A stretch of DNA of 64,000 bases, from NCBI RefSeq assembly GCF_022844445.1, contig NZ_JALHLS010000002.1, positions 327,451 through 391,450 of the forward strand. Direction: 5' to 3'. The notes under the pieces were generated by a model that worked only from the letters and a program-made list of their open reading frames with translations, did not search any database and was not told where the DNA came from. Position 1 is the stretch's first letter, and every line of letters starts with the position of its first letter. Made by a program: the position numbers and the translations under genes. Of this stretch, positions 49,491 to 52,726 are shown in pieces. This DNA comes from Hyphomonas sp. Lineage in GTDB: Bacteria; Pseudomonadota; Alphaproteobacteria; Caulobacterales; Hyphomonadaceae.

Positions 49491-50228
49491 GACCGGGCAT
49501 ATAGGCGACTTTGCGCCGGATTGCGCGGGGAAATTGCGCAGGGACGGCGTGGCAGTGCAGCGAGGCGCCCTTTCCGGCATCGCGCCGGATTTCGGTGCAT
49601 AAGACATGACGTGTTCAACAGATTTGCGGGGTTTGCGCGGCGCGGCGCACCATTCCTGCCGGTGCCGGGGCAGGGAAACTTCATACCATCCGGAACTTGT
49701 CGGTTGATTGGGGGCGAGGCCGCCCCGCGCCGGTCAGAATTTACCCGTTTCGAATCCGGCAGGGTGCGCGGCTGCAGAATACTCCCGGAAGAATGTTTGC
49801 TTCGTGCAAGGACTTTTCCATGGCTGGCCGGCGCTCGCGCCTTGACAGGCCCTGAGCGCTGGCTCGCCATGCCCATGCGCGGTTGCCGGCGTGCATACGG
49901 CATGCCCAGGCCTTCTTCGAGGGAATGGGGGCTCTGCGTGCAACTGTGGCTGCGCCGACAAGGATCCTTTCAGCCAATTGCTGCGCCGCGCGCAACACTG
50001 TCGAGGGCGGCGCGGCCCCGTCACTGGCGCATCGCGGCAGGCATCGCGCGTCGGCCATCACCGACACGCGCTGCTGACGCGGCGGTGGTGGCTCTTCACG
50101 AAACTAGTTTGCGACAGCGCAGCTGCCGGTACGAAGGCAGGAACCGCGGAGACGCCGGCTTCGCTCAGCTGGTCCGGCGACAAGGGCACCAATACCCGCT
50201 GCAACAAGGCAAAGCGGCGGCGGGGGGC
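49491..50228. other. 738-base gap without a supported gene, between rnr and map
   Basis: Open frames of 90-140 codons occur on the minus strand and a frame runs through on the plus strand, but none has recognisable motifs, good starts or normal amino-acid composition. I see no tRNA or known structured RNA. Decay of a former gene is possible. Confidence 0.4.
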
Positions 50229-51017
50229 TCAGCCCGCGGCGGTCTTTTGCTGAAGCATGCGGCGCTCGTCCTGGCGCAGCGTCAGGACGGATACGCCAAA
50301 GTCCGTGACGGCGACTGTGTGCTCGAACTGGGCAGACAGGCGGCCATCCTGCGTACGCACCGTCCAGCCATCGTTTTCGGTGAACACCTGGCGGCTGCCC
50401 TGGTTCAGCATTGGTTCGATCGTAAAGGTCATGCCGGGGCGCAGCGCCATGCCCGCGCCGCGCCGTCCGAAGTGCAGGACCTGCGGGTCCTCGTGCATCT
50501 CCCGGCCGATCCCGTGGCCGCAGAATTCGCGTACCACCGAATAGCCCGCCTGCTTGGCATGGCGCTCGATCGCAAAGCCGATATCGCCCAACGTCGCGCC
50601 GGGTCGCACCGAGCGGATACCTTTCCACATGGCCTCATACGTGGTGCGCACCAGCCGGCGGGCGGGCGCGTTCACGTTACCGAGCATGTAGGTCTTGCTG
50701 GAGTCGGCGATATAGCCATTCTTCTCGAGCGTGATGTCGAAGTTCACGATGTCGCCGTCGCGCAGGATGTCCGCGGGCGAGGGCACGCCGTGGCAGACGA
50801 CGTCATTAATGGAGGCATTCAGCACATAGGCAAAGCCATACTGCCCCTTGCTGGCCGGGCGCGATTTGAGCTCATCCACGATAAAGCGCTCGGCCAGGTC
50901 GTTCACGTCCTTGGTGGACATCCCGATCAGGTCCATCCTGTCAATCAGTCCGAACACGGACGACAGCAGCCGGCCGGACTCTGCCATCAGCCCGAGTTCT
51001 TCAGGTCGTTTTGTCAT
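50229..51017 (-). CDS. map: Type I methionine aminopeptidase, coupled to a ParD-like gene
   Basis: The 262-residue protein has the pita-bread fold residues: NFDITLEKNGYIADSSKTY (two Asp ligands), FCGHGIGREMHEDP (His), MTFTIEPML (Glu) and QFEHTVAVTD (Glu), with HGVPS. It removes N-terminal Met. Start ATG 51017 overlaps the ParD-like stop by 4 bases, so the two are one translational unit. An extension to 51113 was rejected. Whether the genome holds another map cannot be seen. Confidence 0.93.
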   Translation of the reverse strand: MTKRPEELGLMAESGRLLSSVFGLIDRMDLIGMSTKDVNDLAERFIVDELKSRPASKGQYGFAYVLNASINDVVCHGVPSPADILRDGDIVNFDITLEKNGYIADSSKTYMLGNVNAPARRLVRTTYEAMWKGIRSVRPGATLGDIGFAIERHAKQAGYSVVREFCGHGIGREMHEDPQVLHFGRRGAGMALRPGMTFTIEPMLNQGSRQVFTENDGWTVRTQDGRLSAQFEHTVAVTDFGVSVLTLRQDERRMLQQKTAAG

Positions 51018-51226
51018 GCGGCGTGGGCGCCCAGCGGAGGCGGGGTGATGCCGGCAGCGGCCATCTCGCGCTGAATGATCTCGTTGAAGGAAAGGGACGG
51101 GTTCATCTCGCACAGCATGCCGATGCGGATCCAGTAGGCGGCCTGGGCATTGATCGAGCGGTAGGTGACAGTGCTCGCCCTGCGCACCTGATCGTGCAGT
51201 TCGTGGTCGATGTTCACGATGCCCAT
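51014..51226 (-). CDS. ParD-like ribbon-helix-helix protein
   Basis: The 70-residue protein starts MGIVNIDHELHDQVRRAS, an RHH beta-strand plus helix, then a second helix (SINAQAAYWIRIGMLCEMN) and LSFNEIIQREM. It matches the ParD-like family (PF11903 as I recall). A GGAGTG site lies about 8 bases before ATG 51226; a GTG at 51235 is also in frame. It sits upstream of map with ATGA overlap, the gene order of an antitoxin. Repeats in its leader suggest it represses itself. Confidence 0.8.
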   Translation of the reverse strand: MGIVNIDHELHDQVRRASTVTYRSINAQAAYWIRIGMLCEMNPSLSFNEIIQREMAAAGITPPPLGAHAA

Positions 51227-51250
51227 AGGTATCACTCCGCTTTAAGAACT

Positions 51251-51276
51251 ATATGAAACATATACATACCATATAC
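51251..51276 (-). promoter_or_regulatory. AT-rich repeat operator upstream of the ParD-like gene
   Basis: ATATG-AAA-CATAT (51251-51263) is a perfect 5-3-5 palindrome, and CATATAC occurs twice with an 11-base period (51259 and 51270). The run is very AT-rich for this genome and lies 25-50 bases before the RHH start, as for an RHH operator covering a promoter. Confidence 0.6.
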
Positions 51277-51364
51277 GCTTTGAAAATGAACTTGTGTAGC
51301 GAAACGGGGGATGCGTTGAGCTTCGCGGCCCCCGTGTTAGGCTTCCTGCAAAAGGGAGGAAGCC

Positions 51365-52726
51365 TTGAGCGCTTCAGCGACGGACGATCTTGCAAAACTG
51401 GGCGCCCGGGCCACGGCAGAGGCCGTACGGACGGGCAATATTTCGGCGCTGGAGGCCTGCGACGCTGCCATCGCCCGCATCGAGGCGCTGGACGGGGCGA
51501 TCAACGCGGTGGTCGTGCGTGATTTCGAGCGCGCGCGGGCGACCGCAAAGCGGATCGATCAGACGAAGTTGGCCGGCGACCCGCGCCGTCTGCTTGGCGT
51601 GCCGATGACGGTAAAGGAGTCCAACGATGTCGAGGGGTTGCCCTCAACCTGGGGCTTCGAGATGTTCGCCAATGTCGATGCACCCCGCGACGGTGTGGTC
51701 GTCCAGCGGCTCAAGGCGGAAGGCGCGGTAATCGTTGGCAAGACCAATGTGCCGGTGGCGCTGGGCGACTGGCAGTCCGAAAACCCGGTCTATGGCCGCA
51801 CCGTGAACCCCTACGATCCTACGCGCTCGCCGGGCGGCTCGTCCGGCGGGGCGGCAGCGGCGCTGGCGACCGGGATGGTGCCGCTGGAAATCGGCTCCGA
51901 CATCGGCGGCTCGATCCGAAAGCCGTCGCACATGTGCGGTGTGTTCGGTCACAAGCCGAGCTATGGCATCGTGCCGCTGCGCGGGCATGGATTTCCGGGT
52001 ACGGACGGCCTCGATGTGCCGCTCGCCGTGGTCGGGCCGATGGCGCGCAATGTCGGCGACCTGATCGAGACGCTGGACATCATTGCCGGGCCGGAGATGC
52101 CCGGCTACAAGCTGGACCTGCCTCCCGCGCGCCATGGCCGGCTGACCGATTTCCGCGTTCGCGTGATCCGCAGCATGCCCGGTGTACCGATTGATTCCGA
52201 TACTTCGGCGGCGCTGGAGGGATTTTTGGCCGGGCTCGACAAGGCCGGTGTTCGCGTGACGGAATCCGTCGAAGGCTATCCGGACCTCGCGCACATGAAC
52301 GCCGCCTATGTCCGCATGCTGATGACCGTCATCTCGCGCGGTACGCCCGAGGCATCGCCGATGAACGCGCACGACTGGATGAACCTGCAGGACGAACAGC
52401 TCGCGGCCGCGCGCCAGTGGGCGAACGTGTTCGACGAGACCGATATCATCATCTCGCCGATCTTCTCGACGCCCGCTTTCACTTACATGACCGATCCGGA
52501 CTGGACGAAACGGCAGTTGCCGATCGACAATGCCCTTCATCCCTATGGCGGCCAGCTCGCCTGGGCGAGCATCGCCACCTATGCCGGCCTGCCTGCAACC
52601 GCCGTGCCGGTGGCGCGTACGCGTTCCGGGCTGCCTGTCGGCTTCCAGCTGATCGGCCCGCCCTTCGGCGACCGTACGAGCTTGCGCTTCGCGCAGCTGC
52701 TCGAAGCTGCAGGCCTCACGGCTTGA
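51365..52726 (+). CDS. Amidase signature-family hydrolase
   Basis: The 453-residue protein has the triad K84 (MTVKESNDV), GGSSGG (157-162) and S183 (SDIGGSIRKP). The start is TTG with a strong AGGGAGGAAG site. Close relatives are called amidases without tested substrates; it is distinct from GatA and from the amidase at 19.4 kb. It leads a plus-strand run to an NTF2-like gene and glpK. Confidence 0.85.
   Translation: MSASATDDLAKLGARATAEAVRTGNISALEACDAAIARIEALDGAINAVVVRDFERARATAKRIDQTKLAGDPRRLLGVPMTVKESNDVEGLPSTWGFEMFANVDAPRDGVVVQRLKAEGAVIVGKTNVPVALGDWQSENPVYGRTVNPYDPTRSPGGSSGGAAAALATGMVPLEIGSDIGGSIRKPSHMCGVFGHKPSYGIVPLRGHGFPGTDGLDVPLAVVGPMARNVGDLIETLDIIAGPEMPGYKLDLPPARHGRLTDFRVRVIRSMPGVPIDSDTSAALEGFLAGLDKAGVRVTESVEGYPDLAHMNAAYVRMLMTVISRGTPEASPMNAHDWMNLQDEQLAAARQWANVFDETDIIISPIFSTPAFTYMTDPDWTKRQLPIDNALHPYGGQLAWASIATYAGLPATAVPVARTRSGLPVGFQLIGPPFGDRTSLRFAQLLEAAGLTA

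Follow-up and report, generated by a model that had tools for sequence, protein, structure and literature searches.

Methionine aminopeptidase (MetAP), an essential enzyme, removes the first amino acid of newly made proteins, and the locus described here raises the question of why a second gene for such an enzyme should directly follow a small RHH gene in a layout resembling a toxin-antitoxin operon. The pair lies on the minus strand of a 64,000-nucleotide stretch of Hyphomonas sp. DNA, referred to throughout as the window. The first-pass annotation of this DNA had described a 70-residue ParD-like RHH protein upstream of map in antitoxin-first order with an ATGA overlap, and had proposed either control of MetAP dose by the RHH protein or a toxin-antitoxin-like module built around a MetAP paralogue. 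The described layout holds, the overlap lying at 51017-51014; the span assigned to it, 51014-51276, ends one base short of the first palindrome. The features of the locus are as follows.

50229..51017, minus strand: MetAP gene, 262 aa, a second type I methionine aminopeptidase of clade B (S59 Q62 N70 M177, E. coli numbering)
51014..51226, minus strand: RHH gene, 70 aa, PF11903 ParD_like, predicted autorepressor, N-terminus Met-Gly-Ile-Val-Asn-Ile
51014..51017, minus strand: ATGA, overlap of the RHH stop and the MetAP start; a -4 overlap is also found in 23 of 61 paired loci
51221..51226, minus strand: Met1-Gly2 codons of the RHH gene, invariant across paired loci and encoding a MetAP-type substrate where the predicted DNA-reading strand begins
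51270..51277, minus strand: operator-like site 1, CGTATATG, 0 mismatches against CRTATAYG
51259..51266, minus strand: operator-like site 2, TGTATATG, 1 mismatch against CRTATAYG
51248..51255, minus strand: operator-like site 3, CATATAGT, 2 mismatches against CRTATAYG

The gene pair and the second aminopeptidase

In profile searches the window RHH protein scores 70.7 bits against PF11903 ParD_like (cut-off 23), which makes it a member of that family, and the MetAP scores 278.5 bits against TIGR00500 (cut-off 171.35), as a type I MetAP should. The RHH start is placed at ATG 51226, with GTG 51235 as a possible alternative; this placement is supported by a start codon at the same position in 141 of 141 paired loci. 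The partner is a PF00557/TIGR00500 protein, an M24 peptidase, and not the ParE-family protein that a ParDE system would have. The catalytic ligands D97, D108, H171, E204 and E235 are all present together with H79 (E. coli full-length numbering, which is the window numbering plus 3), as the annotation had claimed, and among 139 paired MetAPs each of these positions is conserved in at least 138. Two loci of one genome (L012, L195), in which the MetAP is cut by a contig end after 61 residues, enter the RHH counts and are left out of the MetAP counts. The window's genome contains one PF11903 place and two TIGR00500 maps, namely the window copy and an unlinked copy on contig 5 that is 41.7% identical to it, and the suspicion that the enzyme is a paralogue, rather than the only map of the genome, was correct. 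A third PF00557 place, a 622-aa frame on contig 1, is unmatched by TIGR00500. Between the RNase R frame and the end of the MetAP gene, some 620 bp (49608-50228) hold no evident gene in the frame list.

The paired enzymes differ from other maps in the pocket that receives the first residue. Table 2 of PMC10724148, the part of that source used here, gives C59, Y62, Y65, C70, F177 and W221 as the six residues that make up the P1 subsite of the E. coli enzyme. In a first group of paired MetAPs, clade B (125 rows including the named loci, which are the best 80 of 362 by similarity), S59, Q62 and N70 are found in 125 of 125 rows and M177 in 124, so that four of the six methionine-pocket residues are replaced, in the window copy as well, and the usual P1 subsite is lost; the TIGR00500 cut-off does not require a P1 subsite of the Y62/C70 type. 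The 120 listed homologues of the window MetAP, from 8000 scored, all have S/Q/N/M at positions 59/62/70/177. The P1' subsite of clade B is essentially unchanged. All 14 rows of clade A, the second group, carry N59, Y62 and Y177, with C70 in 11 and L70 in three. Y62 and C70 occur together in every one of the 58 other maps in this count, from which L170 and L185, two highly divergent MetAPs, were excluded. As clade A keeps Tyr62 and mostly Cys70, the pocket change would lie outside any mechanism shared by all the pairs. When 60 paired MetAPs are placed in one tree with 60 others, they form two clades, of 46 rows (support 99/100) and 14 rows (99/89), which are separated by other maps; grouping them in one clade is rejected, but weakly (AU p 0.043). 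Two MetAP clades against a single RHH lineage suggest two acquisitions of the MetAP partner, by exchange or recruitment.

Distribution and mobility of the pair

Conservation of the pair had been proposed as a check within the alphaproteobacteria, and the pair is found there and beyond. PF11903 occurs in 17 of 61 relatives, directly before a second over-cut-off map in 14; in one further relative (G029) it directly precedes a MetAP cut by a contig end, and in two (G055, G031) no map adjoins it. A second over-cut-off map is present in 14 of the 17 relatives with PF11903 versus two of the 44 without (G010 and G053), a difference with a Fisher p of 3e-9 uncorrected for kinship. Within the genus sample any PF11903 is found in 15 of 37 genomes and the pair in 14 of those; within the phylum sample PF11903 is found in 109 of 398 genomes at 117 places, five of which were left out and two of which were already among the relatives. 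The resulting 127 places (17 from relatives and 110 from the phylum) divide into 61 that directly precede a MetAP and 66 that do not. The estimated gap between the two genes is -4 in 23 of the 61 paired loci, and L045 (+103) is the one locus outside the range -17 to +37. Every one of the 61 paired genomes, 15 from the relatives and all 46 from the phylum sample, has a further over-cut-off type I map, such that the spare MetAP accompanies and never replaces the housekeeping map. The 80 named loci give no coupling rate, since they were chosen as the best 80 of 362 by similarity, and at least 10 of them, judged by the lengths of the contigs, lie on the same contigs as genome-set loci.

A sample of 289 genomes from the class contains seven with a window-like MetAP (E up to 1e-78), six of which have the RHH gene upstream. 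The seventh, G459, has a clade B-type MetAP (L296, G459:C1:704329-705093) with neither an RHH gene nor a palindrome array upstream, and this orphan indicates that the RHH protein has been dispensable at least once. Another genome of the same genus, G576, carries the full pair.

Several observations concern the movement of the two genes. In the 80 named loci (the best 80 of 362), 79 loci and 33 genus labels are covered by the RHH cluster and as many by the MetAP cluster, and among the 22 widest neighbour clusters it is RHH and MetAP alone that recur beyond two genera; four of the 22 overlap the pair and are taken, from their position, as shadow frames. The paired MetAPs of the window's genus require four label changes on the tree, and the 17 housekeeping rows of the genus form one clade. 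The Solimonas, Cupriavidus and Bordetella hinzii loci have 8.2 kb in common at 97.5-98.4% identity and Extensimonas has 5.25 kb; in Solimonas this common stretch encodes the integrating-conjugative-element proteins TIGR03755 and TIGR03756. At E up to 1e-5 the RHH protein has matches in 161 of 72,556 plasmid records, and 22 of these reach at least 60% identity. The top 11 Klebsiella and Salmonella plasmid rows have the pair annotated as a 'ParD-like family protein' followed by map, and on small Acinetobacter and Psychrobacter plasmids the pair adjoins a recombinase gene. No near match to the Klebsiella plasmid copy is found in E. coli genomes. Taken together, these comparisons indicate that RHH and MetAP form a conserved module of two genes, and a mobile one.

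Individual loci add some detail. In four loci from four genera (L238, L244, L245, L250) the pair lies within a nearly identical stretch, and in L238 it stands between an MFS-type gene and the TIGR03755/TIGR03756 integrating-conjugative-element genes. A 24.7-kb mobilizable plasmid of Acinetobacter seifertii (L273) carries the pair along with annotated OXA-58 and APH(3')-VIa genes. A phage origin is rejected, as no match occurs in 50,697 phage records; IMG/VR contains two loci with the pair, one of them cut by a contig end, and on one contig of the viral collection (L294) the pair lies approximately 0.9 kb from a frame that looks by eye like an endolysin. Co-regulation with the amidase gene at 51365-52726 was also considered, and the amidase is taken as incidental because it stands divergently beside the pair in six of 19 amidase-bearing genus genomes and is absent from the neighbours recurring beyond two genera. 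For the amidase in G023 and G026, an empty-site comparison found other frames upstream and no clean empty site. No co-duplication of deformylase with the spare MetAP was seen.

The RHH N-terminus and the palindrome array

All 66 members of the RHH alignment (A2) match PF11903 in a profile search, and 22 of them match FitA-like_RHH, with a best E of 0.0023. A monomer model of the RHH protein has helices at residues 8-21 and 25-41 and no strand (mean pLDDT 80.5), and comparison with solved structures returned no PDB sequence match and no fold match. The 141 paired loci (61 genome-set and 80 named) represent 126 distinct leaders and 129 distinct RHH genes. In all of them a start codon (133 ATG, 5 GTG, 3 TTG) directly precedes Gly-(Ile/Leu), and the conserved Arg of an R-S-x-N-x-Q motif is residue 23. 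Gly2 is encoded by GGC in 92, GGT in 41, GGA in seven and GGG in one, and since all four Gly codons are used and the start codons vary, it is conserved as protein and not as DNA. Nine more paired loci (L272-L274, L294, L295, L297-L300) likewise have a start codon followed by Gly.

The unpaired relatives are built differently at this end. An in-frame start that would place the Arg at residue 23 is found in 0 of 64 measurable unpaired loci, two of the 66 being without the ruler motif; counted from the nearest ATG the Arg is residue 24 in 43, and the paired N-terminus is accordingly one residue shorter than that of most unpaired relatives. None of the nearest-ATG starts of the 66 unpaired loci is Met-Gly. 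When all in-frame upstream starts are counted, a start with Gly after it is present in eight of the 66; among these eight, L065 has an in-frame ATG-Gly that is off the paired position but near enough to the core to serve as a genuine start. In the unpaired relatives the column of Gly2 holds Val or Ile (39 of 59) and that of Met1 holds Ala, Ser, Pro or Thr (48 of 59). Among the 127 PF11903 places no Met-Gly-type RHH stands without a MetAP. Mean pairwise identity over residues 3-47 is 64% for paired and 50% for unpaired RHHs in the phylum-wide sample. A single branch (SH-aLRT 100, in a quick tree of 63 columns where long branches meet) separates the paired RHHs from other PF11903 proteins. With the Met-Gly start, the operator and the map coupling all on this one branch, 141 of 141 does not count as 141 independent events, and the tree points to features held constant by shared descent rather than to many independent origins.

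The tight repeats noticed earlier in the window leader are three 8-bp palindromes at 11-bp steps, counted from site to site, and they prove to be part of an operator-like array conserved across the family. A pair of sites 11 bp apart, with at most one mismatch each, is found in 45 of 61 genome-set paired leaders (0.02 expected from shuffles) and in 69 of the 80 named ones, the best 80 of 362 (0.12 from shuffles), versus 0 of 65 unpaired leaders, where shuffles predict 0; it is lacking in 16 of the genome-set and 11 of the named paired leaders. A run of three CRTATAYG sites with at most two mismatches each occurs in 111 of 141 paired leaders. Over the 126 distinct leaders, spacings of 11 bp (157), 22 bp (60) and 33 bp (11) dominate, any other spacing being seen three times at most. 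The array is thus a feature of the family beyond chance. It is also private to the rhh-map locus: the double motif, at up to one mismatch, occurs in the window's genome at its own locus only, and in 60 paired genomes the 19-bp double motif (at most one mismatch) was found at the own locus in 33, with seven hits elsewhere versus 15 for a reversed control. These same counts give no support to a wide regulon. A sigma-70 scan of the window leader gave no promoter, a TTG box lying upstream of the array shows weak enrichment (44 of 122 leaders versus 19 in the control), and overlap of array and promoter is for these reasons not established. Tandem CRTATAYG-like arrays are also seen in two genus genomes that lack the pair (G004:C2:540598-540627 and G032:C2:50660-50689), where they are possibly operators of another RHH protein.

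Candidate roles of the pair

The best-supported part of an explanation is that a dedicated RHH protein, with an operator-like array of its own, is combined with a MetAP that is paralogous and ligand-complete, a combination that probably reflects autorepression. We hold, with moderate confidence, that the pair is a mobile module in which the RHH protein represses its own operon and keeps the second MetAP low until needed, and this confidence applies to the core, an autorepressed spare MetAP. As the RHH fold suggests, the palindromes, spaced by about one helical turn, would be occupied by adjacent dimers that block rhh-map transcription. In this respect the protein would resemble the CopG, MetJ and Arc repressors, which, in the portion of PMC9731233 available, bind repeated or palindromic sites as RHH dimers with an N-terminal beta-ribbon as reading head, all of which is predicted here; it differs in its 8-bp palindromes, its 11-bp steps and its fixed Met-Gly N-terminus. 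The altered pocket of clade B might give tolerance of an inhibitor or of damage that stops the housekeeping MetAP, or might instead accept a somewhat different first residue.

What would release the repression is the least certain step. MetAP cleaves Met preceding Gly and other small residues. According to the parts of PMC4803016 and PMC9731233 at hand, the N-terminal beta-ribbon of RHH proteins enters the DNA major groove, which would place a removable Met1 at the edge of the predicted reading head. Because Met1 is both of a kind that MetAP removes and at the start of the predicted groove-entering strand, we tentatively suggest that the signal is MetAP failure, sensed via the RHH protein's own Met1-Gly2. 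The Met1-processed form would be the repressing one, and when the housekeeping MetAP is blocked, metal-starved or oxidised, the RHH protein would keep Met1, repression would be lost and the spare MetAP would be made. In its fullest form the proposal is more speculative still: the RHH protein would be a self-reporting sensor whose Met1 is at once a MetAP substrate and part of the DNA-reading head, so that loss of MetAP would release a private operator and induce a pocket-altered, mobile spare MetAP, all within approximately 1 kb. Against sensing, a cleavable Met1 is not special, as a small residue 2 that would permit MetAP action (Ala, Pro, Ser, Thr or Val, counted from the nearest ATG) is found in 61 of 66 unpaired relatives too. 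We know of no dedicated sensor of MetAP shortage. If the proposal is true, a mobile repressor with a spare MetAP would constitute a ready-made route to N-terminal processing when the main enzyme fails, and the module bears on MetAP as a drug target.

The strongest competitor, which we regard as a real though lesser prospect, is a plain autorepressed spare MetAP whose dose the RHH protein sets by negative feedback or by binding MetAP, with no sensing role for Met1-Gly2. It draws on the same operator and paralogy evidence, fits the small residue 2 usual in unpaired relatives, and has a bacterial precedent in B. subtilis YflG, in the available part of PMC1266368 a second, functional, non-essential MetAP of low expression, in a genome that also has an essential map, and weakly repressed by YvoA. 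The likeness lies in a second MetAP in addition to a further map and in a repressor (predicted here, YvoA acting weakly on yflG), and the difference in that YvoA is not described, in that part of the source, as an RHH protein or as encoded beside yflG. Shared descent aside, this reading leaves the invariant Gly2 and the exact N-terminal length, variable in unpaired relatives, unexplained.

A specialised aminopeptidase, in which clade B would act on another first residue such as oxidised methionine and be induced under that stress, is unlikely; the near-invariant replacement of the pocket that sets clade B apart from the Tyr62/Cys70 maps argues for it, and its absence from clade A, despite the same kind of RHH protein and operator, together with the essentially unchanged P1' subsite, argues against it.

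A type II toxin-antitoxin system, with the paralogous MetAP as a toxin that would, for example, strip wrong residues and the RHH protein as an antitoxin that would bind this toxin and act with it to repress the operon, is a less favoured possibility, and we consider it unlikely. The layout proposed earlier is indeed present in the sequence, with the RHH gene first, the frequent 4-base overlap and a predicted palindromic auto-operator, as in ParDE and other RHH-antitoxin operons (PMC4803016, as far as the part consulted describes them), and the patchy occurrence in the genus, the small plasmids where the pair lies near recombinase and annotated toxin-antitoxin genes, the coupling of every Met-Gly-type RHH among the 127 places to a MetAP and the changed pocket of clade B all point the same way. 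Unlike ParDE, however, the pair has no ParE, and its partner is a ligand-complete M24 MetAP that retains the metal ligands and P1' residues of an ordinary one; moreover, the clade A pocket is nearly ordinary, the orphan MetAP of G459 persists without an RHH gene as a toxin should not, the 64% identity of paired RHHs is judged high for an antitoxin, and a PADLOC defence-system search gave no match. The toxin-antitoxin and plain-dose readings overlap in part with the autorepressed spare MetAP preferred here and differ from it in signal or in the role of the enzyme. A conditional spare enzyme is favoured as the better fit than a toxin, and the earlier interpretation as a whole is partly supported.

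No description of an RHH or ParD-like protein paired with MetAP was found in the literature searched; PMC3948609 has both terms, and in the part of it available the MetAP is not in a toxin-antitoxin pair. Of the name 'ParD-like', the PF11903 match stands, but it is a family name only, the paired RHHs keeping to their own side of the branch and the partner not being ParE. At least two kinds of protein are annotated in this way, and one of them has a housekeeping-type enzyme for a partner. On contig 98 of another genome (G197), a MetAP gene, 41.8% identical, lies 778 bp downstream of an RHH gene of the unpaired PF11903 type (L190/L106).
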